From a virus: DNA of 36,053 bases. Below are positions 11,516-33,896 of the stretch, one piece after another (the stretch's first letter is position 1; each line of letters begins with the position of its first letter). A program made the position numbers and the translations under genes. The notes below the pieces were generated by a model. The model was not told where the DNA came from. It was given only the letters and a program-made list of their open reading frames with translations, and did not search any database. The stretch is from IMG/VR virus record IMGVR_UViG_3300050821_006356, positions 1 to 36,053 of that record, one strand, 5' to 3'.

Positions 11516-12118
11516 ATGGCCGAGAACGGCAAATTGCCCGCCTCGGAGCTGTCGCCGATCGCGCAGGGCGAGCTGCGCAACGACTGCGCCGCGGCCTGGA
11601 ACGCGCTCAACGTCGAGGCACGTTCGCTCGGCTGCGAGATCGTGCCGACCGGCAGTAAGTCCAGCTATCGGTCCTATGCCCAGCAGGTCGAGCTGTACGA
11701 GGTCTATCTCAACGGCGGCAACCTGGCCGCCAAGCCGGGCACGTCAAACCATGGATGGGGAACGGCGGTCGACGTAGCGACGCAGGACATGCGGTCGATG
11801 ATCGACCGCATCGGGGCCAAATACGGCTACTCGAAAAGCTGGAGCGATGCGCCATCGGAGTGGTGGCACATCGTCTACCAGGCCGGGCACTACGCCGGGC
11901 CAGACCCTGGGCCATACGGCTCGGCTATTCCCGAACCACCGGAGGACACAGTGTCGATATTCGCGGTCGTAAAGAAGGATGGGCGCATCGAGGTGTTCGC
12001 CCAGAAGTCCGACGGCTCGGTGATGCACGCCTATCAGGTCGCCGAAAACGGTGGCTGGGCTGGGTCTGAGAAGGGCAAGGCCGCGCAATGGTACGGCCTC
12101 GGGAACCCCGGCAAGTGA
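11516..12118 (+). CDS. Endolysin: M15 (VanY-type) D-Ala-D-Ala carboxypeptidase with C-terminal module
   Basis: A 200-residue lysin. Residues about 20-125 are an M15 zinc peptidase domain: SYRSYAQQVELY, then GTSNHGWGTAVDV with zinc ligands His79 and Asp86, then EWWHIVY with Glu115 and His118. Such enzymes cut peptide bonds of peptidoglycan. Residues 147-200 are a separate module (IFAVVKKDGRIEVFAQKSDG and onward) that occurs again at the end of the lysin at 34127-34807, with 34 of 53 residues identical. It probably binds the cell wall. No signal peptide is visible, so a holin is expected. Two tiny membrane peptides follow it directly. Confidence 0.9.
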   Translation: MAENGKLPASELSPIAQGELRNDCAAAWNALNVEARSLGCEIVPTGSKSSYRSYAQQVELYEVYLNGGNLAAKPGTSNHGWGTAVDVATQDMRSMIDRIGAKYGYSKSWSDAPSEWWHIVYQAGHYAGPDPGPYGSAIPEPPEDTVSIFAVVKKDGRIEVFAQKSDGSVMHAYQVAENGGWAGSEKGKAAQWYGLGNPGK

Positions 12119-15231: not shown

Positions 15232-16704
15232 ATGAGCCTGACCGCCCCTGCCCCCGGCTCGCTGCTGACCCCCGAGGGCTGGCGCGACGCCCTGCTGGCG
15301 GCCATGAGCGCCCGCCAGGGCACGATCGACCGTTGCGACGCCTACTACCGCGGCGATCACCGGATGACGTTCCAGACGTCCCAATTCCGCCAGACGTTCG
15401 GCAACCTTTTCTCGGCCTTCGCTGACAATTGGTGCGACCTGATTGTCGACGCCTCGGCCGAGCGGCTGCGCGTCGAGGGGTTCCGGTTCGGCGACAACCC
15501 GGCCGACGAGGCCGCCTGGGAGATCTGGCAGCGCAACGGCCTGGACGCCGAGTCAGACATGGCGCACACCGAGGCGATCAAGCTCGGGTGCGCCTATGCC
15601 CTGGTGGGCCCCGACGACGCCGGACTGGCGTCGATCCAATTGGAACCCGCCTCGGGCGCGATCGTTTCGGTGGACCCGGCGCAGGGCCGTCGGCGCCTGG
15701 CCGGGCTGCGGGTGTGGGCCGACGAGTGGGACGCCGAGCACTGCGTGCTCTACCTGCCCGACTCGATCACCTACTGGCGCCGCGAGGGCGGCAGCATGTC
15801 GACGCGCTGGGAGGCCGACGAGGGCGGCGGCACCAACCCGATGGGGGTGGTGCCCCTCGTGCCCCTGGCCAACGCGCCGACGCTGTCAGACCGCCTCGGG
15901 CGCTCAGACATCGAGCGCGTGATTCCGCTTCAGGACGCCGTCAACAAGCTGTGCGCCGACATGGTCATCGCCTCGGAATTCAGCGCGTACCCGCAGCGCT
16001 GGGTGACGGGCGTCGAGATCCCCACCAACCCGATCACCGGCGAGCGCATGGCCGCGCAATTCCTGGGCGGCGCCGACCGCGTCTGGGGCGTCGAGGCTAC
16101 CGATGCCAAATTCGGCAATTTCGCCGTCTCGGATCTCGGCATCTACGTCAAGGCCGTGGAGATGCTGATCCAGCACGTCGCCGCGCAGACCCGCACGCCG
16201 CCGCACTACCTGCTCGGGGCCATGGGCAGCTTTCCCAGCGGCGAGTCATTGAAGGCCACCGAGACGGGGCTGGTGGCCAAGGTGCGGCGCAAGATGCTGT
16301 CCTTTGGCGAGGGGTGGGAGGAGGCCATGCGCCTCGCCTTCGCCGTCGAGGGCGAGACCGCGCGGGCCGAGATGATCGACGTTGAGACCATCTGGGCCAA
16401 CCCCGAATCGCGCATCGTCGGCGAGACGGTGGACGCCGCGGTCAAGCTCCAGAGCATCGGTGTGCCCCGCCCGGCGCTCTGGGAATACATCGGCGCGTCG
16501 CCGCAGCAGATCTCGCGGTGGATGGTCGAGGGCGAGCCCAAACCGACCCCGGCGCTGCGCGAGACGGTCTCGGTCGCCGCGACGCCGCAGCAGGGCGTCG
16601 AGATAGCCACGGGCGAGCCCGTCACCGGAGCCGCCCCCAGCGGCGCGCCGTCGGCCCCGCCGGGTCGCGGCGCGCCGCCTCCGGTGGCCCCGGCCAAATC
16701 TTGA
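15232..16704 (+). CDS. Portal protein (SPP1 gp6-like)
   Basis: A 490-residue portal. The order of segments fits the Gp6-like portal family: a start with IDRCDAYYRGDH, a core with IPLQDAVNKLCADMVIASEF and PQRWVTGVEIPTN, and the helical block LIQHVAAQTRTPPHYLLGAM with FPSGESLKATETGLV near the channel. The C-terminus is Pro/Ala-rich and likely flexible. Portals form a twelve-part ring at one head vertex through which DNA passes. It follows the large terminase by two bases, and a hairpin lies just past its stop. Confidence 0.93.
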   Translation: MSLTAPAPGSLLTPEGWRDALLAAMSARQGTIDRCDAYYRGDHRMTFQTSQFRQTFGNLFSAFADNWCDLIVDASAERLRVEGFRFGDNPADEAAWEIWQRNGLDAESDMAHTEAIKLGCAYALVGPDDAGLASIQLEPASGAIVSVDPAQGRRRLAGLRVWADEWDAEHCVLYLPDSITYWRREGGSMSTRWEADEGGGTNPMGVVPLVPLANAPTLSDRLGRSDIERVIPLQDAVNKLCADMVIASEFSAYPQRWVTGVEIPTNPITGERMAAQFLGGADRVWGVEATDAKFGNFAVSDLGIYVKAVEMLIQHVAAQTRTPPHYLLGAMGSFPSGESLKATETGLVAKVRRKMLSFGEGWEEAMRLAFAVEGETARAEMIDVETIWANPESRIVGETVDAAVKLQSIGVPRPALWEYIGASPQQISRWMVEGEPKPTPALRETVSVAATPQQGVEIATGEPVTGAAPSGAPSAPPGRGAPPPVAPAKS

Positions 16705-16707
16705 GCT

Positions 16708-16730
16708 TTGCCGCGCATCGGGCGCGGCAA
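16708..16730 (+). terminator. Hairpin after the portal gene
   Basis: A perfect 9-bp stem, TTGCCGCGC (16708-16716) with GCGCGGCAA (16722-16730), closes an ATCGG loop three bases past the portal stop. It probably cuts or reduces read-through into the collagen-like gene. Confidence 0.68.
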
Positions 16731-16758
16731 GAACCAAACCATCCAAGGGGGTGGCGTA

Positions 16759-17460
16759 GTGAGGGCAGTACGCCGAATCACAGCGACGGTGATGGGGCTG
16801 GCCGTCGTGTTCGCATTGAGTGCTGGAGTGGCCAGCGCTCAGACCAGCACCCAGTCCGCAGCACAGAGCATCACCAAGGCCCATGCGGCCAACGCGCTGC
16901 GTGGGCCTCGTGGCCCGCGTGGTTTCCGGGGGCCCGCTGGGCCTCGGGGACCTGCTGGCCCTGCCGGGCCTGCCGGTCCGACCGGCGCCACCGGCGCCAC
17001 CGGCGCCGACGGTCCCGCTGGCCCCGCAGGCGCAACAGGGCCGCAGGGTCCTGCCGGTGCGTCGGGCGACACCAACACCAAGGAATTCACGTTCCGCGGT
17101 GACATCTCGACGCCGACCACCCAGGTGACGGCGCTCGACGGTGTGAAGCTCAACGCCGATTGCAGTGCGCTCGGGCGGGTCACGCTGACCGCCGTGGCGA
17201 CCAACGTGGCCCCGGGCGTGCTCACTGAGCGCGACGGCACTGCGTTCGGCATCGTCACCCGGTTCGGCGAGGCCAACACGACGGCGCGGGTGCTCATCTC
17301 TCCGGTCAGCTCCGCCAGTTCGCGGGCTGATGTCGAGGTGCATTACGTGAGCAACGCAGGGCAGGACACCACCATCAACGTGGCGGCGGTGGACCTGGCC
17401 GACGGTCCCAACGGGCTCGGCACCGCGTGTGTCGTGTACGGGACGGCCACGACGTTCTAA
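16759..17460 (+). CDS. Secreted collagen-like protein, probable cargo (moron) gene
   Basis: A 233-residue protein from the GTG at 16759, with AAGGGGG upstream. Residues 1-27 are a signal peptide: basic start ([10 protein letters not shown]), hydrophobic core ([13 protein letters not shown]), and cleavage near S-A-Q. After a short linker come about 17 G-x-y triplets ([20 protein letters not shown] and on to GASGD), then a likely beta domain of about 115 residues ([16 protein letters not shown] onward) with two cysteines. Collagen repeats with such a start are common in Actinobacteria surface proteins. It sits between portal and scaffold, bounded by two hairpins, where no virion gene is expected. 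It is probably made by the infected or lysogenic host and exported. The longer frame from 16708 crosses the hairpin. Confidence 0.8.
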
Positions 17461-21036: not shown

Positions 21037-21686
21037 GTGCCACCGCGCAACGCGCCGAGGTCGGGCCGATGGTCACCGGCGGCGACGTCGAGGCCGCGGT
21101 CATGGTCACCCTGCGCGACTGGCTGCCCGCCTACCTGGGCGAGGGTGAGCGCCTGCACGGCCTGCCGCCTGGTGACACCCCGGCGCCCCGGGGATGGGCG
21201 ATCACCGGGCGCGACCTACAAAAGCTCAACACCGACCAGCTCCCCTGCGTCGTGGTCATGGCCGCGGGCATCACCTCGCCGCCGATCAAGGAGGGCGCGC
21301 CGGGGCGCTATACGGCGATCTGGGGCGTCGATATCGGGACCGTGTTCTCGGCCGCCTGGGGCCGCTCGTCGCGGCGGCACTGTCAGCTCTACGCCCGCGC
21401 CATCCAATTGTGCCTGGAGCAGCGCACGCTGGACCTGCCGGGCGCCGTGGTCAATTGGCGCGGCGAGGTGTACGACGAGCTGGATTTCGAGTCGAGCCGG
21501 TCCTACTCGGCCAGCGTCGTGAGTTTCAACGTCGAGGCGCGCGAGGTGGCATGGGCTGCTGGTGGCCCGCCGCCCGACGCGCCACCGCCCACCGACCCCA
21601 CGGTGCCGTTTGACCCGTGGGTGTCGGTGGTCGAGACCGACGTCACCGTCGAGAACACCCTCGTCGACCAGCCACTACCCGACTAA
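21033..21686 (+). CDS. Probable tail terminator / neck protein
   Basis: A 217-residue protein just before the tail sheath, where contractile-tailed phages place the tail terminator. It has an alpha-beta pattern (AAVMVTLRDWLPAYLGEGER, LPCVVVMAAGITSPPIKEGA, TAIWGVDIGTVFSAAWGRSS), similar to terminators that cap the tail tube. No strong family motif is seen, so the call depends on order and fold pattern. The end is a proline-rich tail and a beta strand. GTG start overlaps the previous stop. Confidence 0.62.
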   Translation: MSATAQRAEVGPMVTGGDVEAAVMVTLRDWLPAYLGEGERLHGLPPGDTPAPRGWAITGRDLQKLNTDQLPCVVVMAAGITSPPIKEGAPGRYTAIWGVDIGTVFSAAWGRSSRRHCQLYARAIQLCLEQRTLDLPGAVVNWRGEVYDELDFESSRSYSASVVSFNVEAREVAWAAGGPPPDAPPPTDPTVPFDPWVSVVETDVTVENTLVDQPLPD

Positions 21687-21699
21687 CCGGGAGGACATG

Positions 21700-23244
21700 A
21701 TGAGCAGACCTGGCGTCGAGGTTTCCTCGGCGGCGTCGGCCCCACCCGTGGGCGTCCCCACCGACACAAGCGTGGCGTTTGTGATCGGCGAGGCCCAGAT
21801 GGGGCCGACTGACGCGCCGACGCGCCTCACCTCACTGGACGACTTCACCACCACCTACGGCGCGCGCATCACCGGCGTGGAGTCATACGACGCGCTGGAC
21901 ACCTATTTCCACGAGGGCGGGGCGACGGCCTATTTCCTGCGCCTCGCCGACGGTGCCTTGCCCGCCTCGGGCGACGCCGCCGCCATCGTGGCGGGGAACA
22001 CCCTTGGCGCGGCCAGCGCGGGCGCCTGGGGTAACGGCCTCAAGCTCGACGTGGTCCCCACGCCGGGCGGGAGCACGCAGAGCAACGGCAAATCCAGCAA
22101 GGCCAAGTCGGGCAACGGCAACGGCAACGGCGCGCCGACGCGCTCGGCGCTGCTGACCTTCCCCGACGACCAGGCGGGCGCGGCGACGTTCATGGCCACG
22201 GTGTCACTCGGCGGCAAGGCGGTGCAGACCTCACAGCCGATGGTGACGCGGCGCGACCTGTCGCAATTTCTCGACAGCGCCTCCTATCTGACGATCCAGG
22301 GCCCCGACAACGACGACCCGATCGCCGCCGGGTCGGTCACCCTGGCGGGCGGCGATGACGGGACGGTGCCGGTCACCGACGCCAGCGCGCTCGCCGCCGC
22401 CCTGGCGGTGCTCAACCCCGAGCTGGGCCCCGGCCAGGTGTTGGCGCCGGGCCGCTCGACGAGCGACGATCACGCCGCGCTGCTCGCGCACGCGGCCGCC
22501 ACCAACCGCTATGCGATCCTCGACGGCGGGGCGCACGACGACGCGCTCGCCATGGCCTCGGCGGCGGCGCTGCTGCGCGGGGCCGCAGAGGACCGCTACG
22601 GCATGCTGTGGGCCCCGTGGGCGGTCATTCCGGGCCTCGCCCCTGGAACCAGTCGCACGGTGCCCTGGAGCCCCGTACAGGCCGCCCTGTGCGCTCGCAA
22701 CGACCTGGCCGGTAACCCCAACCAGGCGGCCGCGGGCTCGTGGGGGCAAACGCAATGGGTCACCGACCTGGCCCAGCGCTTCACCCCCGACGAGTGCGAG
22801 ACGCTGCTCTACGCCGGGGTGGACACCGCGCGGTCGGTGTACGGCACGATCGAGGCCTACGCCTTCCGGTCGCTGTCGGATCCGTCCGGGCCCAATCAGG
22901 AATGGGTCCAGGCCAATTTCGGGCGGCTGGCCATGGCCATCGTGGCCGAGGGCGAGGCCACGGGAGAGGACTTCGTTTTCTCCCAGATCGACGGCCGCGG
23001 CCTGGACATCGCCGCGTTCGGCGGCGCCCTGGCCGGGGACCTCATCTCGTTCTACAACGCCGGGGCGCTCTACGGCGAGGACCCCACCGAGGCCTTTGTG
23101 GTCAACGTCGGGCCCGCTGTGAACACCCTGCCCAAGCTCGCCGACGGGGTCTTGTCGGCGGTCGTCTCGGTGCGCATGTCGCCGCACGCCGAGCTGGTGC
23201 AAATCCAGATCGTCAAGCAGCCGATCACCGTGTCACTGGTCTAG
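21700..23244 (+). CDS. Contractile tail sheath protein
   Basis: A 514-residue tail sheath protein. The start (RPGVEVSSAASAPPVGVPTD then TSVAFVIGEAQMGPTDAP) is the usual P-G-V-x-V-x-E opening, and FTTTYGARITGVESYDALDT with FHEGGATAYFLRLA matches sheath domain I. The end, with VVSVRMSPHAELVQIQIVKQ, gives the strand that joins neighbouring subunits. Between about 120 and 160 is a Ser/Lys/Asn/Gly linker (GKSSKAKSGNGNGNGA). ATG codons lie at 21697 and 21700; GGGAGG is better spaced for 21700. Sheath subunits contract to drive the tube into the cell. Confidence 0.94.
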   Translation: MSRPGVEVSSAASAPPVGVPTDTSVAFVIGEAQMGPTDAPTRLTSLDDFTTTYGARITGVESYDALDTYFHEGGATAYFLRLADGALPASGDAAAIVAGNTLGAASAGAWGNGLKLDVVPTPGGSTQSNGKSSKAKSGNGNGNGAPTRSALLTFPDDQAGAATFMATVSLGGKAVQTSQPMVTRRDLSQFLDSASYLTIQGPDNDDPIAAGSVTLAGGDDGTVPVTDASALAAALAVLNPELGPGQVLAPGRSTSDDHAALLAHAAATNRYAILDGGAHDDALAMASAAALLRGAAEDRYGMLWAPWAVIPGLAPGTSRTVPWSPVQAALCARNDLAGNPNQAAAGSWGQTQWVTDLAQRFTPDECETLLYAGVDTARSVYGTIEAYAFRSLSDPSGPNQEWVQANFGRLAMAIVAEGEATGEDFVFSQIDGRGLDIAAFGGALAGDLISFYNAGALYGEDPTEAFVVNVGPAVNTLPKLADGVLSAVVSVRMSPHAELVQIQIVKQPITVSLV

Positions 23245-23256
23245 GAGGTGTGAGCA

Positions 23257-23667
23257 ATGCGTGAGGACCAATTCAACGTGACGGTGTCAATCGACGGCAT
23301 CGGCAACCTGGGGACGTTCGACAAGTTCACCGGGGGGTCGATCGACTCCGACGAGCAGAAATACAGCCCCGGCGGGATGGCCCCGCCGATCTCGCTGGGC
23401 GGCGCGGTGACCATGTCCAACGTGATCGTGTCGCGCCTGGTCGACCTGGTGCGCGACTGGGACATGATGCACAAGCTGCTGTCGCTGGTGGGGGTCGCCA
23501 CCATCACCGCCGCCAAGCAGCCGCTGGATATCAACAAGGTCCCCTACGGCCGCCCGCTGGTGTACCAGGGCACGATCAAGCAGGTGACGGTGCCCGATCA
23601 CGACTCGACGTCGTCTAACCCGGCCGTCTTCGATATCGAATTCGTGCCGACCGGGACGGTGGGCTGA
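23257..23667 (+). CDS. Tail tube protein
   Basis: A 136-residue protein directly after the sheath, the normal place and size for the tail tube. NVTVSIDGIGNLGTFDKFTG opens it, followed by a loop and APPISLGGAVTMSNVIVSR, the usual T4 gp19-like tube pattern. It ends in a strand (PAVFDIEFVPTG). Rings of six make the inner tube that carries DNA. RBS GGAGG precedes the ATG. Its last base is shared with the next start (TGATG). Confidence 0.92.
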   Translation: MREDQFNVTVSIDGIGNLGTFDKFTGGSIDSDEQKYSPGGMAPPISLGGAVTMSNVIVSRLVDLVRDWDMMHKLLSLVGVATITAAKQPLDINKVPYGRPLVYQGTIKQVTVPDHDSTSSNPAVFDIEFVPTGTVG

Positions 23668-24257: not shown

Positions 24258-24445
24258 TCGAGGCGTGCGCCGTCGCCGCGCTGTGCGGCGTGCCGGTGGC
24301 GCGGATCGTCGAGGGCGATCCGATCGAGCGCGCCGTCTGGATCAGGGTCACCACCCGCGCCGCCGAGCTGCGCGTGCAGATGATGCGAGCCCAGGCCTCA
24401 CATACCGCCGAGCAGGTGTCACTGCTCTTTAGACGCCATGGCTGA
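24239..24445 (+). CDS. T extension made by -1 frameshift (GT fusion)
   Basis: This frame is open up to and across the end of G but has no good start of its own. A -1 shift at GTG-GGG-GAA (24234-24242) would join G to about 68 more residues: IPGPLIEACAVAALCGVPVA, then a helix (AVWIRVTTRAAELRVQMMRA) and end SLLFRRHG. Its stop is inside the tape measure start, as for GT products of other tailed phages. The shift site lets P-site tRNA re-pair with GGG; the A-site match is weaker. The downstream frame uses normal codons. Confidence 0.75.
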   Translation, partial: GIPGPLIEACAVAALCGVPVARIVEGDPIERAVWIRVTTRAAELRVQMMRAQASHTAEQVSLLFRRHG

Positions 24446-26036
24446 GGGCAATCTCGACATCATCATCCGCGTGCAGGGCGGGCAGGCCTCGGCGGTCGAG
24501 ATCCGCGAGGTCGGCAAGGCCACCGCCCAGGTCGGCACCAACGCGCAGGAGTCGGCGAAAAAGACCTCCGGGCTGCGCTCGGCCATGACCGGCCTCGCCA
24601 CCGGGTTCGCCGTTTACAAGGGGTACCAGTTCATAAAGTCGGCGGTCAACGAAACGGTGAGCCTGGCCAAGGCCACCGCCTCGCTGCAACGCATCACCGG
24701 CATGGACACCAGCACCGCCTCGGGCTGGGTCGGCGTCGCCAAGGAGCGCGGCATCCAGTCCAAGCAGCTCAACCAGGGATTCATCACCCTGGCCAAAAAC
24801 ATCGAGTCAGCCGCGGGCGGCTCTAAGACCTCGGCCAAGGCCTTCGCCCAGCTCGGCCTCGACGCCGCCAACCTCAAGGTGCAGGACTCGAAAACCCAGC
24901 TCGGGATGCTGGCGGATTCGTTCAAGGCGCTACCGGCGGGCGTGGATAAGGCGTCACTGGCGCAAAAGCTGTTTGGGCGCCAGGCGCAGACGCTGCTGCC
25001 GCTGCTCAACATGGGGGCCAAGGGGCTCAACGAGCAGGTGGGAGCCGAGGCCAAGCACATCGGCATGACCGGCAAGGCGGCCAAGCAGTCGATGGAGCTG
25101 GCCCGCCAGCAGCGCGAGCTGAACGCCACCATGCTCGGGCTCAAGGTGTCGATCGCCACCGCGCTGCTGCCGATCATGACGGCGCTGGCGAAGGCGTTCC
25201 TACCGATCATCCAGGCGTTCACCAAGCTGATGACGCAGTCGCCGATCTTCCGGTTTGCGGTCATCACCTTGACGGCGGCCATCCTCGCCTATGTCGGCGC
25301 GGTCAACCTGGCCAAGCTCGCCGATATCGAATTCATCGCCACCGCCGCGCCGTGGCTGGCGCTGGCGGTCGCCATCGGCGCCGCGCTGGTGCTGCTCTAC
25401 AAGCACAGCGCGGCGTTTCGCGACGTGCTCAATGCGGTGAAAAACGCCGGGATCGCGGCCATGAACTGGATCAAGAACGCGGCTATTGACGTGTTCCATT
25501 GGGTGTCAAAGAACTGGCCGACGCTGCTGGCGATCCTCACCGGGCCGATCGGCCTGGCGGCCAAGGCGATCATTGACAATTGGGGCTCGATCAAGGGCGC
25601 CGCCCGCTCGGCCTGGGACGTTCTCAAGAGCGTGGGCAATTGGATCGGCGGCGCGTTCACCGACGCCTGGAACGGCTGCGCCGACGCCGTCCGCTCGGTG
25701 GCCCACGCCATCGGCAGCGTCGTCTCGACCGCGGGCAAGATCGCCTCGCTGCCCGGTAAGGCGCTCAGCTTCCTGGGCAGCGTGGGCAGCTCGGCGCTCA
25801 GTGTCATACCGCACGCCATGGGCGGCACCGTCTCGGCCGGGGGCGAGCTGGCCCTCGTCGGCGAGCGCGGCCCCGAGATCGTGGCCCTGCCCGGCGGCTC
25901 GACGGTGATCCCCAATCATCGCCTGGGCGCGGCCGGTGGCGGCGCCGTGCACGTCACCGTTCCGGTGTACCTCGACCGGCGCCAGGTCGGCCTGGCCATG
26001 GGTGACTACGTCGCTGACAAGCAGGCGGCGCGGTGA
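24438..26036 (+). CDS. Tail tape measure protein
   Basis: A 532-residue tape measure, short for this class. At the roughly 1.5 angstrom per residue rule it predicts a tail near 80 nm. It starts with DIIIRVQGGQASAVEIREVG, has a long helical body, two hydrophobic segments (about 270-295, RFAVITLTAAILAYVGAVNL, and about 305-325, LALAVAIGAALVLLYKH), and ends in a Gly-rich domain (GGTVSAGGELALVGERGPEI then VTVPVYLDRRQVGLAMGDYV). That end pattern is typical of tape measures. The start overlaps the T extension. Confidence 0.92.
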   Translation: MAEGNLDIIIRVQGGQASAVEIREVGKATAQVGTNAQESAKKTSGLRSAMTGLATGFAVYKGYQFIKSAVNETVSLAKATASLQRITGMDTSTASGWVGVAKERGIQSKQLNQGFITLAKNIESAAGGSKTSAKAFAQLGLDAANLKVQDSKTQLGMLADSFKALPAGVDKASLAQKLFGRQAQTLLPLLNMGAKGLNEQVGAEAKHIGMTGKAAKQSMELARQQRELNATMLGLKVSIATALLPIMTALAKAFLPIIQAFTKLMTQSPIFRFAVITLTAAILAYVGAVNLAKLADIEFIATAAPWLALAVAIGAALVLLYKHSAAFRDVLNAVKNAGIAAMNWIKNAAIDVFHWVSKNWPTLLAILTGPIGLAAKAIIDNWGSIKGAARSAWDVLKSVGNWIGGAFTDAWNGCADAVRSVAHAIGSVVSTAGKIASLPGKALSFLGSVGSSALSVIPHAMGGTVSAGGELALVGERGPEIVALPGGSTVIPNHRLGAAGGGAVHVTVPVYLDRRQVGLAMGDYVADKQAAR

Positions 26037-26842
26037 TGGTGACCAAGGCCAAGCCCAAGCCCAAGCCTCACGCCAAGGCCAAGCCCAAGCCCAAGCCGCT
26101 GACCGCCGAGCAGAAGGCGATCCGCGAGCTGTACCCGCACGAGCGCTCGGCCTACAAGGCCATCCCGCCCGACAAGCGCGGGCCCGGCAAGCTCGCGCCT
26201 GGGCACTCGGTGATCCTGCAAGCGTGGGGGGTGTCGCTTCAGGTGACCGCCCAGCTCGGGGTCAACGGCGCGCACCTCACCGGCGGCTACGGCAATTGGA
26301 CGCAGGTCCTGGTGCCGCGCGCCGACCCGCTCACGCAATGGTCGGGGCGCAACCTCTACACCATGGACCTCGACCTGGTGCTCGACGGCTACCGCCAGGG
26401 CCGCTCGGTCGAGCCGCAGATCAAGGCGCTGGAGGCGCTGGCCACCCGCGACCCGGCGATGTTGACACCGCCCGCGCTGCGCATCTATGGCGCCGTGCCC
26501 CACCCAGGGCTCAAGTGGGTGATTGCCGGGATCGACTACACCAACACCCCGGCGACGCTGCGCAAGTACCCCAGCGGCGAGCGGCTGCGCGAGTCGGTGA
26601 CGGTGCACCTGATGGAGTACCGCGAGGAGACGACGCTGGTCAGTCTGCCGCGCGCCGCGGCCACCCCGGCACCGCCGACCAAGTACAAGATCAAGCGCGG
26701 CGATGACCTGAAAAAGATTGCCGCCCGGCGCCTGGGCAAGTCCAGCCGCTGGCCGGACATCGTCAAGCTCAACAAGGGCCTGCGCGGCCCCAAGCTCGCG
26801 GCCAGCATGGTCGGTAAGACGATCAAGGTTCCGGCGAAGTAG
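26033..26842 (+). CDS. LysM-domain baseplate protein (gp53/X-like)
   Basis: A 269-residue protein after the tape measure. Residues 1-25 are a Lys/Pro repeat (KPKPKPHAKAKPKPKP). The middle is strand-rich (LTGGYGNWTQVLVPRADPLT), and the last 50 residues are a LysM domain: YKIKRGDDLKKIAARRLGKS then WPDIVKLNKGL and VGKTIKVP. In contractile tails, a LysM protein here links tube, tape measure and hub, as in T4 gp53 or the small LysM protein of related contractile systems. GTG (26033) and ATG (26036) starts are both possible. Confidence 0.85.
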   Translation: MMVTKAKPKPKPHAKAKPKPKPLTAEQKAIRELYPHERSAYKAIPPDKRGPGKLAPGHSVILQAWGVSLQVTAQLGVNGAHLTGGYGNWTQVLVPRADPLTQWSGRNLYTMDLDLVLDGYRQGRSVEPQIKALEALATRDPAMLTPPALRIYGAVPHPGLKWVIAGIDYTNTPATLRKYPSGERLRESVTVHLMEYREETTLVSLPRAAATPAPPTKYKIKRGDDLKKIAARRLGKSSRWPDIVKLNKGLRGPKLAASMVGKTIKVPAK

Positions 26843-27349
26843 ATGGCCACCAAGGGCCAGACCGTCACCGTCAAGGTCCGGTCGCGCCACCTGCCCGCGG
26901 CGCTGGCCACGGCGCGCCCGCCCGCGGCCGACCTCGACGTCGCGAACCTCACCCTTCAGGGCAAGGGGGTGTCGGCCAAGCTCAAGCAGGCGATCACCGA
27001 CGGGTCGATCGAGCAGACGATCCAGGGCGCCTCGACGCTGACCCTCACCGTCGCCGACTGGGCCGGGGGCCTGCTGCGCTCGGCGCTGCTGGCGGGCGGC
27101 GTGACCCTCACCTTTGACGGCTTGAGCTTCACCATGGTCAAGATCTCCAAGAGCGACACGGCGCTGACTCTCACCTTTGAGGAGACGGCGGCCAACCTGC
27201 TGCGCCAGTACAGCTCGCCGAAAAAGGCCGACCGCGCCACCACCACCCGCGCCCAATTCGTGCGCTCGCTGGTACAGGAGGTGACGCAGGCGCGGATCCC
27301 CTTCCGCTGCCCGGAGGTCAATAAGCGCCAGGCGGTGGCCACCAAATGA
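26843..27349 (+). CDS. Baseplate hub protein, N-terminal part
   Basis: A 168-residue protein with a hub-type N-terminal domain. VKLKQ-like helix and strand patterns (VANLTLQGKGVSAKLKQAIT then STLTLTVADWAGGLLRSALL) and LTFDGLSFTMVKISKSDTAL resemble the first part of P2 gpD or T4 gp27-type hub proteins. Those proteins are usually over 300 residues. Here the rest appears at the middle of the next gene, so the hub seems split, with a lytic domain between. It starts directly after the stop of the LysM gene and overlaps the next gene by four bases. Confidence 0.75.
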   Translation: MATKGQTVTVKVRSRHLPAALATARPPAADLDVANLTLQGKGVSAKLKQAITDGSIEQTIQGASTLTLTVADWAGGLLRSALLAGGVTLTFDGLSFTMVKISKSDTALTLTFEETAANLLRQYSSPKKADRATTTRAQFVRSLVQEVTQARIPFRCPEVNKRQAVATK

Positions 27350-28680
27350 CGCTGACCTGTAAGCACGTCCCCGCCAACGCGCAGCAGATCCCCAATCTCA
27401 AGCTGCTGGTGGCGCTGGCCAAGCAGATGGGGGCCAACCAGTCACAGATGGCCGGGGCGATGGCGACGATGATCCAAGAGTCAAACGCCGTCAATCTGAG
27501 CGGCGGCGACCGTGACTCGGCCGGGCTGTTTCAGCAGCGGCCGTCGATGGGCTGGGGCAGCTACGCGCAGGTGACCAACCCCACCTATGCGATCAACAAA
27601 TTCCTCAGCAAGTACATGCCGCTGGTCAAGCGCGGCGTGGCCATCTTCGCGGCGTCTGACCAGGTCCAGGGCTCGGCCTTCCCGCAGGCCCCGGCGCAAT
27701 GGTATGACGAGAGCTGGGCCAACGTCACCCAGCTTACGTCGGGTAAGGACTTCATCGACGCCACCAGTCTCGGCGGGTCGACCAGCTCGACGACCACCCG
27801 CGTGCAGCCCTACGAATTCTCGCGCGGCAACGCGGGCCAGCGCGAGACCTCCTGGGACTGCATCGGCCGCCTGGCCGACGAGGTGAGCTGGGATCGGTTC
27901 ATGCGCGGCGGGGCGCTCTGGTTCGTGTCCGAGAACTACCTCAAGTCCCAGCCGCCGCGGTTCACCTTCTCGGTCGGCGCCCGCGGGGTGACGGCGATCA
28001 ATTTCGACTCTGACTCGCGGCGCAACGCCGCCGAGGCCACCGTCACCGCGCTGGCCAAGCGCTGGTCGGTGCTGCCCGGCGACGTCGTCACCGTCTCGGG
28101 CGAGGGGCCCGGCGATGGGCTCTGGCTGGTCTCAGACGCCCGGCGCACCCTCTGGGACGACACGACCGAGATCACCCTCAAGCGGCCGGTGGCGCCCAAG
28201 CTGGAACCCGCCAACACGACGACCACCGTCACCGTCGGGGGCCTGCCGAGCCTCGGCGGCTCGTCGGCGAGCGGCGCGCCCAAGCTCGCCCAGGACTTCT
28301 ACGCGGCCTGTAAGGCGATCTCAGACCGGGGGTTGCCCTACGTGTACGGCGGCGGCCACGGCGCCGTCGGCGTCGCCTCGGGCGGTGGCTTTGACTGCTC
28401 GGGCTCGGTGTGCGCGGCGCTCGGCGCGGTCAAGCTCGGCTACCAGCTCGGCGGCCCGTGCGCGGTCTCGGGGACGATGGCCACCTCGTGGGGCGTCGCG
28501 GGACCCGGCAAATACTTCACCGTCTGGGCCAACCCCGAGCACGTCTGGGTCCAATTTCACGGGTTCCCCAATTGGCGCTTTGACACCTCGCCCCACGGCG
28601 ATGGCCCCCCCGGCCCGCGCCTGCGCAAGTCGGCGCGCTCGACGGCGGGATTCACTCCCAAGCACTGGCCGGGTCTGTAA
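27346..28680 (+). CDS. Baseplate hub protein with transglycosylase-like and NlpC/P60 domains
   Basis: A 444-residue multi-domain protein. Residues about 1-125 look like a lysozyme or transglycosylase domain: [11 protein letters not shown] with Glu45 as likely acid, then [16 protein letters not shown], the G-L-F-Q-x-x-P mark. Residues about 150-285 ([39 protein letters not shown] and [20 protein letters not shown]) resemble the later part of phage hub proteins. Residues about 305-440 look like an NlpC/P60 peptidase: [14 protein letters not shown] with Cys351, then EHVWVQF with His399. It would cut both glycan and peptide bonds during tail entry. It overlaps the hub N-terminal gene. Confidence 0.82.
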
Positions 28681-31397
28681 TGCCCCAGCTCGATCAGCTA
28701 TTCGCCAAGATGGGCACGCCGCCGTTCTCGGGCCCGCAGTGCTGGGAGGGCACCGTGGTGGCCACCGACGGCTCGGGGACCTACATCGTGCTGGAGACCT
28801 TCGACGGTCGCCTGCGCTGGGGGCCCTGTCAGCCCCCAGGAGCCTCCGTAACGGTCGGCCAGCGCGTTTCCGTCGCCATGTCCCAGGACGGTGTCCTATG
28901 GCTGCTCGGGGGCGCAGGTGGCGGCGGAGCGCCCGGGCCGCCAGGGCCCGAGGGCCCGATGGGGCCGAAAGGCGACACCGGACCGACCGGCGCCACCGGC
29001 GCGCCGGGCGCCGCGGGCCCGACGGGGCCGCAGGGCGGCAAGGGTGACAAGGGCGACACCGGCGCCGCCGGGCCGACGGGGGCGACGGGCCCAACCGGAC
29101 CGACGGGCCCCCAGGGCGTCAAGGGTGATACCGGCGCCACCGGCGCGACCGGCGCGCCCGGCAAGGACGGCGTGGGCTATGAGGCTTCGCCCGTCGGGGC
29201 GGTGCTCACCTTCCCCGGTAAGAACCTGCCCGTCGGCTACGTGCTCGCCGACGGGCACACCTACGCCAAGGGCACCTATCCCCAGGGCTATGACTTCGCC
29301 GTTGCCGAGGTCGCGGCCGGTAACCCGCTCTGGACCGTCAACGCCGCCGCCCAGACGTTCACCGTGCCCGACCTGCGCGATCGGTTCCTGTACTCCTCGT
29401 CGTCGGCGGCGCTCGGCTCGGCCGGTGGTGAGGCGGCCCATACGCTGGTCAATGGTGAGATGCCCGCGCACGCGCACAGCGGCGCGACGACGGGCGGCAC
29501 CACCGGCGCAGACTCGCCCGATCACGCGCATACGCCGTCCGGCTACGGCAATTTCATAGCGACGAACACGGGCGGGACTTACACCGGGTTCGCGGGCGGT
29601 GGCGCGGGCGGCGTGGTCAGCACCGGAGCGGCCAGCGGCGTCACCGGGGGCACCGCGGGGGCGAACGTTCGCCACGCCCATAGCGTGCCCGCGCTTGGGA
29701 TCTACAGCGACGGCGGCGGCGGTGCGCACAACAACATGCCGCCCTATGTCGTGCTCGCCTTCATCGTCAAGGTGTGGGGCGTCGTCAACAACGGGTCGAC
29801 GCTGGTCGGCCCGCCCGGCGCTCGCGGCAACACGACCTATCTCTACACCGGCGTGGGCACGCCCCCGGCGGGCACGTTCCCGGGAGAGATCGACGGCGAC
29901 TGGGCGGTGCGCAAGGGCGACGGGGAGAATTTCCAGCGCCAGGCGGGCGCGTGGGTGGACCTCGGGTTTACCAACCGCTCGACGGCGGCGGTCAACATGA
30001 CGCGGGCGTACCGAACTGCTGCGTTCACAGTGGCATCGCAGACATGGCAGGCGATCCCACTCGACACGATCGCCTACGACCCAGGTGGCTATTTCAACAA
30101 GACGACGGGCAAGTACGTCGCGCCCACCACTGGGACATACCTGTGCACCGGAGCAGTAATGTTTGCGCCCGGAACCACCGGAGCCATTGCCGGGCTGTCG
30201 ATCAACGGGGGTCTACCGTCGATGCGCGGCGGCGCGGCGGTGAACGTCCCATCTCCGCTGGGCATCGAAGCACCTACGGTCACGGACATCGTTTTCTGCA
30301 ATGCGGGCGACACGATCGCGCTGGCGTGCTTCCCGGGTGGCGCGGATGCTCTGTACGTCGGGAATGCCGCCACGACGTACCTGTCGGTCGTGCAGATCGC
30401 GGCCGGGCCGGGGCCGCAGGGGCAGCGCGGCTCTAATTGGTTCACCTACACCGGCGCGGGGACGCCGCCAGCGGGAACGTTCCTCAACGAGACCGATGGC
30501 GACATGGCGACGCGCAGCTCGGACGGCGAGGTCTTCCGGCGCATCAGCGGCGCCTGGTCAGATCAGGGGTGGAAGGTCGCGACGGGGTCGAACACGATGG
30601 ATACGTGGCACCTGGTGGGCACGGCGGGCGAACCTGCGTTCCAGAATGGATATGTGAACTACGGCGGCGGCTTCGCTGCGTGTGGCTTTCGGCGGTTCCC
30701 CGACGGCAAGGTCAAGCTCAAGGGGCTGGTCAATGGACCGGGCGCGTCGGCGGTGATCTTCACTCTGCCGCCCGGCTACCGGCCGCCGGGCGAGACCAAG
30801 CTCAACGTGGTGCAGACCAATAGCGTGGTCGGGCGCGTCGATGTTGCGGCCACCGGCGAAGTGGGCGTGTCGGTAGGCACGTCGGGCTGGGTGTCGCTGG
30901 ACAACATCGAATTCGATACCAACGCCGTCTCGGTAATGAGCGCGGGGGCGATGGGACCACCGGGACCGGGCAGCGGCGCGTACAGCGTGCAGCGCACCTG
31001 GATCGGCTATCCCGGCGCGTCGGTCGAGTCGTACACCGCGACGTTCACGACGTCGCAAAGTCCGCTGTCGCTGAGCATTACGCCGAGCGTCCCTATCTGG
31101 TGGGAGGTCTACGGAAAATTCGGGCTCGTGACCAGGGTCGATGCCGCCTACAACTACGCGACCGCCTACCTGATCCTTAACCCGGTCGATCAGGACGGGA
31201 TCAACCAGGGGATTCACTACATCACGCAGCACTCACAGGTTCAGACCATCGAGGGCTATGAGGTCAAGCGCATGTTTCGCCTCGCTGCTGGCACCACCTA
31301 CACCGTCACCTGGATTTTCAACCCGAGCGCGGGCTCGTGGAACTACTACCAGGGCCGCTCTCAGACCTATCTCGATGCGAAAGCGTGGGCGCAATGA
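28680..31397 (+). CDS. Baseplate spike / tail fibre with collagen-like, collar and C1q-like domains
   Basis: A 905-residue protein. Residues about 1-80 form an OB-like spike start ([33 protein letters not shown]). Residues 85-160 are collagen-type triplets ([20 protein letters not shown]). Residues 165-365 are a tail-collar domain: [27 protein letters not shown], histidine pairs MPAHAHSG and RHAHSVP, end [18 protein letters not shown]. Two linkers, each with GTPPAGTF, flank a C1q-like domain at about 440-575 ([40 protein letters not shown]). Then comes a common fibre domain ([16 protein letters not shown]) and an unmatched end. It is likely the receptor-binding part. Base composition shifts near 30000. 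Confidence 0.82.
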
Positions 31398-31639: not shown

Positions 31640-31996
31640 ATGGCCGTCGAGATCCCCCATTTCACCCTGCCGTTTAGCTTCGTCTCCGATGGCACCGGCG
31701 GCCTCGTGGCCGGTGTCGCCGAGCAGGAGTCGGTGGCCGAGATCGAGTCGTGCGCGGAGGCGATCCTGCGCACCGTCCAGGGCCAGCGCACGACGCTGCC
31801 GGACTTCGGGCGCCCCGAGCTGGAATTCAACACCGACCCCGAGCTGGTGCGCGCGACGCTGGCCGCCGCGCTGCTGGAGTGGGAGCCGCGCGTGCAGGCC
31901 CTGGTAACCGCCTGGCCTGACGCGGCCGACGAGTCGGTGCAGGTGATCCGGGCGCTGGTGGCGCCCGCCGACTCCGAGGAGGGCGACCAATCATGA
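31640..31996 (+). CDS. Baseplate wedge protein (W / gp25-like)
   Basis: A 118-residue protein of the gp25/GPW lysozyme-like wedge family. EIESCAEAILRTVQGQRTTL then PDFGRPELEFNTDPELVRA match the family's I-x-x-x-I-x-x-I-L-x-T-x-x-G-x-R-x-x-x-P-x-F-G block. The wedge protein holds the inner baseplate together and nucleates sheath assembly; it is not itself an active lysozyme. It stands directly before gpJ, its usual partner, with a four-base overlap. Confidence 0.93.
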   Translation: MAVEIPHFTLPFSFVSDGTGGLVAGVAEQESVAEIESCAEAILRTVQGQRTTLPDFGRPELEFNTDPELVRATLAAALLEWEPRVQALVTAWPDAADESVQVIRALVAPADSEEGDQS

Positions 31997-33267
31997 GCTG
32001 GATTGACCCGCTGACCGGCCTGCCCGTGCCCGGCGAGCCCGACGAGGTCGAGAACCCCAATGCGCAGCTCGCCGCCGACGAGGGCGGCTACAACGCGCCC
32101 GACGTCGAGACCGACCAGGACGCCATCACCGAGCAGGTCTTTTCGGACCTGGCGGCCAACGTGCCGGGCTGGCAGGCGCACGACGGCAACCTCGACACCT
32201 GGATCGTCGAGGCCTTCGCCGAGGTCGGCGCCGAGATCCGCGCGCTCGCCGCCGACGTTCCCGCCTCGATCTTCACCACCTACGGCGAGGTGGTGCTCGG
32301 CATCCCGCCGCAGCTCGCCGTCGCCGCCAGCGGCCTGGCCACCATCACCGCCACCGACGCCCAGGGCTATACCCTCGACGTCGGCGCCACCTTCGCGCTG
32401 GCGCGCTCGGGCGACGACCTGGTGGCCTTCGCCACGCTGCAAGAGGTGACCATCGACGTCGGCGACGTCTCGGTCGACAACGTCCCGTTCGCCGCGGTGC
32501 TCACCGGCGCCGACGCCAACGGCCTGTCGGGCACCGCGCAGATGCTCGACCCGATCACCTGGGTGGCGTCGGTCGACGTGCCCCAGGCGACCTCGGCGGG
32601 CGCCGACGCCGAGACCCCCGAGGCCTATCTGGACCGCCTCACCAATCTGTTGCGGATGGTGGCGCTGCGGCCGATCCTGCCCCAGGACTTCGCCATCTTG
32701 GCCTTGCAGGTCGAGGGCGTCGGGCGCGCGGTGGCCATGAATCTCTACAACCCGGCCGACGGGACCTGGACCAACGCCCGCACGGTGACCCTGATCCTCA
32801 CTGACGACCAGGGCAACCCGTGCACCGCCGCGGTCAAGGCCACCGTGGCCGCGCAGCTTGAGGGGCTGCGCGAGGTCAATTGGGTGATTCACATCATTGA
32901 CCCGACCTATGAGGCGGTGGCGGTCACTTTCGACGTGGTCGCCTACGCCGGGCAGGACGCCTCGGCGGTGCTGGCCACCTGCCAGGCCAACCTCACCGCC
33001 TACCTGCAACCGGCCATGTTCCGCCTCGGGGCGCTGTCGCCCGCCATCGCTGGGGGCGAGGTCATCCCGCCGCCGACCACCGGCCAGCCCGCCCGCCGCC
33101 AATTCGTCTACGTCAACGAGCTGGTGTCACTGCTCGACCGTTCGCTCGGGGTCGACCGGGTGGTGTCGGTCAAGCTCAACGGCGCCGCCGCCGACCTCCA
33201 GCTCACCAACCCCTATACGTTGCCGACGCCGGGCACGATGACCGGCACCGTCGAGGGCGCGTCATGA
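31993..33267 (+). CDS. Baseplate J-like protein
   Basis: A 424-residue J protein. Early features are DQDAITEQVFSDLAANVPGW and LDTWIVEAFAEVGAEIRALA, then the strand-rich centre (GLATITATDAQGYTLDVGAT) and ETPEAYLDRLTNLLRMVALR, which matches the E-x-x-x-x-x-x-R-x-x mark of the Baseplate_J family (PF04865). These proteins form the ring of wedges around the hub that opens on contraction. It lies between W and I in the usual order, with overlaps on both sides. Confidence 0.94.
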   Translation: MSWIDPLTGLPVPGEPDEVENPNAQLAADEGGYNAPDVETDQDAITEQVFSDLAANVPGWQAHDGNLDTWIVEAFAEVGAEIRALAADVPASIFTTYGEVVLGIPPQLAVAASGLATITATDAQGYTLDVGATFALARSGDDLVAFATLQEVTIDVGDVSVDNVPFAAVLTGADANGLSGTAQMLDPITWVASVDVPQATSAGADAETPEAYLDRLTNLLRMVALRPILPQDFAILALQVEGVGRAVAMNLYNPADGTWTNARTVTLILTDDQGNPCTAAVKATVAAQLEGLREVNWVIHIIDPTYEAVAVTFDVVAYAGQDASAVLATCQANLTAYLQPAMFRLGALSPAIAGGEVIPPPTTGQPARRQFVYVNELVSLLDRSLGVDRVVSVKLNGAAADLQLTNPYTLPTPGTMTGTVEGAS

Positions 33268-33896
33268 GCACCAGCGAGCCCTCGGGCATGACCACCGTCG
33301 GCTCAGACCTCTATGCGGCGCTGGAGCCGATGGCCTACGCCGACGCCGCCCTCGGCTGGCCGCTGGCCCGCTACCTCTCCTCGATCGGGCTGATCCTGGA
33401 GGACACCGCGGCGCTGGTGCGCGTCGACGACCAGGGCAACGACGGCTGGTCGGCCTTCGCCGACCCGCAGCGCTGCCCTGACAGCTACCTCTACACGCTG
33501 GCGCAATGGGCGGGCGTGCGCTACCCGCGGCGCATGTCACTGACCGACCTGCGGGCGCTGATCGGCCCGCACGCGCCGGGGCTGTGGCGTGGCACCAAAT
33601 CGGCGATCTTGGCCGCGGTGCAGCGCTGGCTGACGCCCGGCGGCGTGCTCTATTTCGAGGAGCGCGCCGATGGTGACCCGTACAAGCTGCGGATCTTCTC
33701 TTACACCTTCGACACCCTCGACCAGGCCGCGATCGAGGCCGAGCTGTTCAACGTCATCCCGGCCGGATTGATCCTCGACTATGAGGTGCGCGAGGGCCAG
33801 ACCTATGGCCAGCTTCGCGACTCGATGGCCACCTATGCCGACGTCAAGGCGACCTATCCCACGTATGCCGACGTGGTCGGCTCGCTGCCGCCATGA
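33264..33896 (+). CDS. Baseplate I-like tail protein
   Basis: A 210-residue protein in the position of P2 gpI, after J. It has a helical start (DLYAALEPMAYADAALGWPL), then LYTLAQWAGVRYPRRMSLTD, LRALIGPHAPGLWRGTKSAI and AVQRWLTPGGVLYFEER. This follows the gpI-like pattern (R-G-T-x-x-x-I-x-x-x-x) found in wedge proteins that tie the fibres to the baseplate. The last 60 residues hold strands and a repeat of ATYADVKATYPTYADVVG at the very end. Confidence 0.83.
   Translation: MSTSEPSGMTTVGSDLYAALEPMAYADAALGWPLARYLSSIGLILEDTAALVRVDDQGNDGWSAFADPQRCPDSYLYTLAQWAGVRYPRRMSLTDLRALIGPHAPGLWRGTKSAILAAVQRWLTPGGVLYFEERADGDPYKLRIFSYTFDTLDQAAIEAELFNVIPAGLILDYEVREGQTYGQLRDSMATYADVKATYPTYADVVGSLPP

Follow-up and report, generated by a model that had tools for sequence, protein, structure and literature searches.

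Two neighbouring ORFs of an IMG/VR virus record most probably encode, jointly, a gp27/XkdQ-like baseplate hub that bears two predicted cell-wall enzymes: a GH184-like muramidase set between the two halves of the hub and an NlpC/P60 (C40)-like peptidase at its C terminus. We analysed the record as a single window of 36,053 bases with a G+C content of about 70%, and traced the arrangement through a family of related viral contigs in which the hub is encoded sometimes in one piece and sometimes in two.

The hub ORFs lie in a contractile-tail cluster

The hub ORFs are placed between the tape measure and LysM genes on one side and the gp25 and gpJ wedge genes on the other. Around them, the contractile-tail cluster comprises:

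21562-23244, tail sheath
23257-23667, tail tube
24438-26036, tape measure
26033-26842, + strand, LysM-containing tail protein (Pfam LysM, E 0.0011), adjoining the hub upstream
28680-31397, + strand, collagen-like/collar fibre protein of 905 aa (Collagen, 1.5e-8; Collar, 1.1e-5), adjoining the hub downstream
31640-31996, gp25 wedge gene, 3' of the collagen-like fibre gene
31993-33267, gpJ wedge gene, 3' of gp25
33264-33896, Tail_P2_I, 3' of gpJ

The LysM gene is kept beside the hub in related contigs, and its product probably occupies an XkdP/gpX-like position. The fibre protein runs from an N-terminal stretch through collagen-like repeats to a collar domain; its N terminus may be a spike-like OB domain, and a PHROG family search with its first 107 amino acids gave no match. 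Another collagen-like protein is encoded at 16708-17460, between the portal and scaffold genes, which is an odd site for a fibre-like repeat. For the portal (15232-16704), the closest relatives, at no more than 43%, come from phages of Thermobifida and Streptomyces; for the sheath they come, at about 27%, from phages of Brevibacterium, Arthrobacter and Gordonia. These differing affinities point to mosaic head and tail modules. The nearest tail, portal and enzyme homologues of the window are actinobacterial. Judged by its homologues, phages with the two-enzyme hub probably infect Gram-positive actinobacteria, and a link between such a hub and actinobacterial walls is plausible.

A hub encoded in two parts

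Within the cluster, the hub region contains the following features:

26843-27349, + strand, hubN, the N-terminal part of the hub as a separate ORF of 168 aa; its profile aligns to residues 10-125 of the one-piece hub of Cantare (E 2.8e-10), and homologues occur in 35 contigs
27346-28680, + strand, second hub ORF of 444 aa, with the predicted order muramidase, hubC, C40 peptidase (AF2 mean pLDDT 86.5)
27346-27349, + strand, ATGA stop-start overlap of the hub ORFs; similar overlaps or near-abutting stop/start pairs occur in 12 other contigs
27349-27744, + strand, predicted GH184-like/gp13-type muramidase domain, residues 2-133 (PHROG, E 7.2e-28), with the Glu45 codon at 27478-27480, and Asp55 and Asp57
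27799-28236, + strand, hubC, the C-terminal part of the hub, residues 152-297; it aligns to one-piece hub residues 154-278 (E 4.4e-12), with an HMM match to Cantare gp26 (7.2e-12)
28273-28677, + strand, predicted NlpC/P60 (C40)-like peptidase domain, residues ~310-444, with Cys351 at 28396-28398 and His399 at 28540-28542

We compared these ORFs with the one-piece hubs of cultured contractile actinophages, namely Brevibacterium Cantare gp26, Gordonia DalanDe gp46 and gp47, and Arthrobacter Bumble gp20. The window family aligns to them as two blocks, one corresponding to hubN (residues 10-125) and one to hubC (residues 154-278), in agreement with the initial annotation, which had described a separate gene for the N-terminal part of the hub followed by a gene with the remainder. 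The one-piece hubs show no alignment with the muramidase profile (0.63); the muramidase is thus inserted, between the two hub blocks, where these hubs have ~28 residues. The gp27/XkdQ-like label is itself a prediction that draws on proteins annotated as 'minor tail proteins' in contractile phages, on a weak match of the hub to PHROG_52 and on gene position. When searched by sequence against solved structures, one profile of the hub parts returned nothing beyond chance matches and another matched nothing but the muramidase in its DalanDe row; neither reached a gp27-like hub domain. In the AF2 model of the second ORF, three well-predicted segments are separated by flexible linkers at residues 135-151 and 295-307, and the model of a one-piece relative (L188) is of high confidence. 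Structure prediction had been proposed earlier as a check on this hub; at the level of monomers, which is what the models cover, it shows well-folded domains (pLDDT 86.5).

Scans of viral contigs identified 35 non-redundant contigs with the order hubN, muramidase, hubC, a count that includes the window and leaves out near-identical duplicates. This stretch forms one uninterrupted ORF in 22/35 and is split just before the muramidase in 13/35, the window among them. Because the same domain order is uninterrupted in 22 contigs, the split parts would belong to one functional unit, and because 12 further contigs show the split, it does not reflect a sequencing error in the window. Among named phages, by comparison with 50,697 phage records using the window and L216 as queries, there was no close hub match. 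Of two scans of genome contigs, the first was without matches and the second returned only lysozyme-bearing loci, nearly all actinobacterial and without the hub.

In the window, hubN and the second hub ORF use different frames. Across the split contigs, the second ORF starts between -12 and +5 nt relative to the end of the first stop, and the junctions include ATGA, TAATG, TAGTG, 13-nt overlaps and small gaps. We looked for a -1 slippery heptamer in the overlaps of all 13 split contigs and none was present. Given this, together with the stop-start pairs at the junction, the simplest reading is coupled translation of two polypeptides, and the ATGA junction of the window probably couples translation of the hub ORFs. 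The split could alternatively be a frameshift artefact, or be bypassed by programmed frameshifting, so that the hub is really one chain; one-piece homologues do exist, and the second frame is open 5' of its start in all 13 split contigs. Such a single chain is nevertheless very unlikely, as the break falls at one and the same domain boundary in 13 separate contigs but with differing stop-start arrangements, two of the 13 show another frame relation, and the overlaps lack a slippery heptamer.

A predicted muramidase lies between the hub halves

A PHROG search matches residues 2-133 of the second hub ORF to lysozyme segments from phage endolysins and tape measure proteins (7.2e-28), and a profile built from 35 relatives matches solved GH184 muramidases in the PDB (8b2h, 4e-18; 8b2e, 3.2e-14). 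Glu45 aligns with Glu41 of KsGH184, the residue to which a catalytic role is assigned (PMC10394673), and Asp55 aligns with Asp66 of the same enzyme. Glu45, Asp57, Ser58, Gln63 and Gln64 are invariant in 35/35 relatives. We thus predict that the first hydrolase domain is a GH184-like muramidase. The initial annotation had called it transglycosylase-like; a wall-cutting enzyme directed at glycan is retained, whereas a lytic transglycosylase was rejected as its identity since the profile favours muramidases of the GH184/phi29 gp13 type.

The C-terminal hydrolase is variable among relatives

The C-terminal domain is predicted to be an NlpC/P60 (C40) peptidase. Its family profile matches the solved NlpC/P60 enzymes CwlO (E 2.2e-10) and the diffocin hub-hydrolase CD1368 (4.2e-5), and Cys351 and His399 are invariant in 23/23 aligned C40 rows. 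Taken with the GH184-like match, these profile matches bear out the earlier proposal of two hydrolases with different bond specificities in one hub protein, and the residues then singled out, Glu45 and Cys351, are found at the positions named.

Among the 35 contigs, the C-terminal hydrolase is variable. It is NlpC/P60 in most, an M23 peptidase instead in three (L198, L208 and L215), and NlpC/P60 with a weak Amidase_3 match at the C terminus in one (L206). Five contigs (L193, L203, L213, L214 and L219) have C-terminal HxH-type motifs recognised by no Pfam model; an M15 identity was considered for these domains and set aside for want of a Pfam match, and by motif only they are zinc-peptidase-like. 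One of the 35 contigs stops before the C-terminal hydrolase domain. The hub of L206 (3317-6202) is a one-piece protein of 961 aa with muramidase, NlpC/P60 and the weak Amidase_3 match, and so possibly presents three enzymes per hub.

The muramidase might be the sole active enzyme, with the C40-like domain a degenerate wall-binding or structural domain. In line with this, the window protein alone falls below the Pfam NlpC/P60 cut-off (0.11), a weak second match in NCBIfam is to an inactive RipD-type domain (E 0.036), and the third polar catalytic residue of C40 enzymes has no clear equivalent in the alignment, where column 413 is Asp in 15/23 rows and Gly in 7/23. Against it, the invariant Cys and His extend to divergent relatives, several of which pass the Pfam cut-off, and replacement of the domain by an M23 peptidase elsewhere fits selection for enzyme activity. 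We regard degeneration as unlikely.

Muramidase and peptidase pairs are also found in endolysins (phrog_29272), and the second hub ORF could on that ground be mainly a lysis enzyme acting at the end of infection, not at entry. It holds, however, the second half of the hub and sits among baseplate genes, and the window has a separate candidate endolysin, a VanY/M15 D-Ala-D-Ala carboxypeptidase-like protein at 11516-12118, upstream of the terminase and apart from the hub enzymes. A principal role in lysis is hardly credible on this evidence.

Evolution of the split

A tree was built from hubN, muramidase and hubC of the 35-contig family. All 13 split rows fall in one clade together with three one-piece rows (100/100); within it, the one-piece rows L188, L191 and L194 cluster with the split rows L190 and L192 (100/100). 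Mapping the split and one-piece states on the tree requires two changes. A single clean split clade was rejected (p-AU 1.7e-13), as the three one-piece hubs nest inside it, and separate trees of hubN and of muramidase plus hubC concur on this nested placement. Rooting with cultured phages, whose hubs are in one piece, makes the unsplit state ancestral. Since it is ancestral and one-piece rows are also nested among split ones, the hub gene has undergone three fissions, or else a single fission and one re-fusion.

Comparison with known systems

Two enzymes in one hub had been taken as unusual, which goes too far: in CD1368, of the Clostridioides difficile contractile bacteriocin diffocin (PDB 8v3w), a gp27-like hub precedes a lytic transglycosylase and then NlpC/P60 (PMC10996793, PMC13324602), and the 35 viral contigs share the principle. 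The diffocin study suggests a scissors-like logic for the two enzymes (PMC10996793, PMC13324602). Like the predicted hub of the window, CD1368 belongs to a contractile machine directed against a Gram-positive target and unites glycan-cutting and NlpC/P60 domains with a gp27-like hub in one protein, and its C40 part is related by sequence to that of the window family (4.2e-5). It differs in being a single chain with an intact hub and both enzymes after it, the first of them an MltA-type transglycosylase with a Tyr-Asp-Asp centre. The window protein does not have this layout; its GH184-like muramidase is an insertion within the hub, whose coding sequence is divided between two ORFs. By this analogy the two would be alike in working and different in architecture.

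The same enzyme pair is already present in Bxz1-type mycobacteriophages. Pinkcreek gp127 (948 aa; L262, 7903-10749), annotated only as a minor tail protein, has related lysozyme (1.2e-17) and NlpC/P60 (1.1e-15) domains; it comes from a contractile phage and, as with the window hub, is encoded between the tape measure and gp25 genes. Unlike the window hub, it is one ORF with both enzymes mid-chain, and profile searches detected no hub homology at its ends.

DalanDe gp46 (muramidase), DalanDe gp47 (zinc-peptidase-like) and Bumble gp20 (CHAP) are related one-piece hubs with C-terminal hydrolases, without an enzyme inside the hub and without a split. DalanDe distributes two enzymes over two hub paralogues, which are neighbours (L007, 21271-23939), one ending in the muramidase and the other in the zinc-peptidase-like domain. 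A hub-like protein at 2050-3840 of L076 likewise has the muramidase after hubC, not inside the hub, as in DalanDe gp46.

Phi29 gp13 and the GH184 muramidases share the lysozyme type of the window, with an equivalent catalytic Glu, and gp13 also couples its lysozyme with a LytM-type domain (PMC10394673). Neither is a contractile-tail hub, gp13 being a podophage tail-tip protein and the solved GH184 enzymes secreted fungal proteins.

T4 gp27/gp5 is a familiar case of a hub that is built from at least two polypeptides and has a lysozyme associated with it. The T4 lysozyme is part of the spike protein gp5, whereas the predicted muramidase of the window is an insertion in the gp27-like hub itself. 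As far as the open-licence papers that we searched show, three features are new: the position of the muramidase within the hub, the repeated splitting of the gene at this insertion, and the swapping of the second enzyme among members of a family of uncultivated phages.

A model for the two-enzyme hub

On the preferred reading, in which both ORFs jointly encode the hub, translation of hubN would end at the ATGA where the second ORF begins, and coupled re-initiation would probably yield similar amounts of both polypeptides. HubN and hubC would then co-fold into the cup that one-piece relatives form as a single chain, with the muramidase placed in the loop that separates the hub halves, and the C40 peptidase tethered at the C terminus by a flexible linker. 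Each hub subunit would thereby display two predicted enzymes at the tail tip, presumably in three copies per virion, as for gp27-like hubs. On contraction, the sheath would push the tube and hub into the wall, where the muramidase may cut glycan strands and the C40 domain stem peptides.

A more far-reaching proposal, which we consider doubtful, gives the split a function of its own. The muramidase would have been taken into the cup, and fission at the edge of the insertion would free the enzyme-bearing half to shift or come away on contraction, with hubN remaining on the tube; this would be a genetically encoded equivalent of the cleavage of T4 gp5 by proteolysis. Fission would later have been reversed in one sub-lineage, and the second hydrolase swapped to suit the wall.

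These findings suggest that contractile phages carry a modular two-enzyme hub, in which a conserved glycan cutter is fixed in the cup and a partner hydrolase is exchanged between lineages. The independent solutions in diffocin, Bxz1-type phages and the Gordonia hub paralogues indicate a general requirement for cutting two bond types at entry. The series of split and one-piece hubs offers a natural set for testing enzyme presentation and release, and the hub domains could supply virion-borne wall enzymes.
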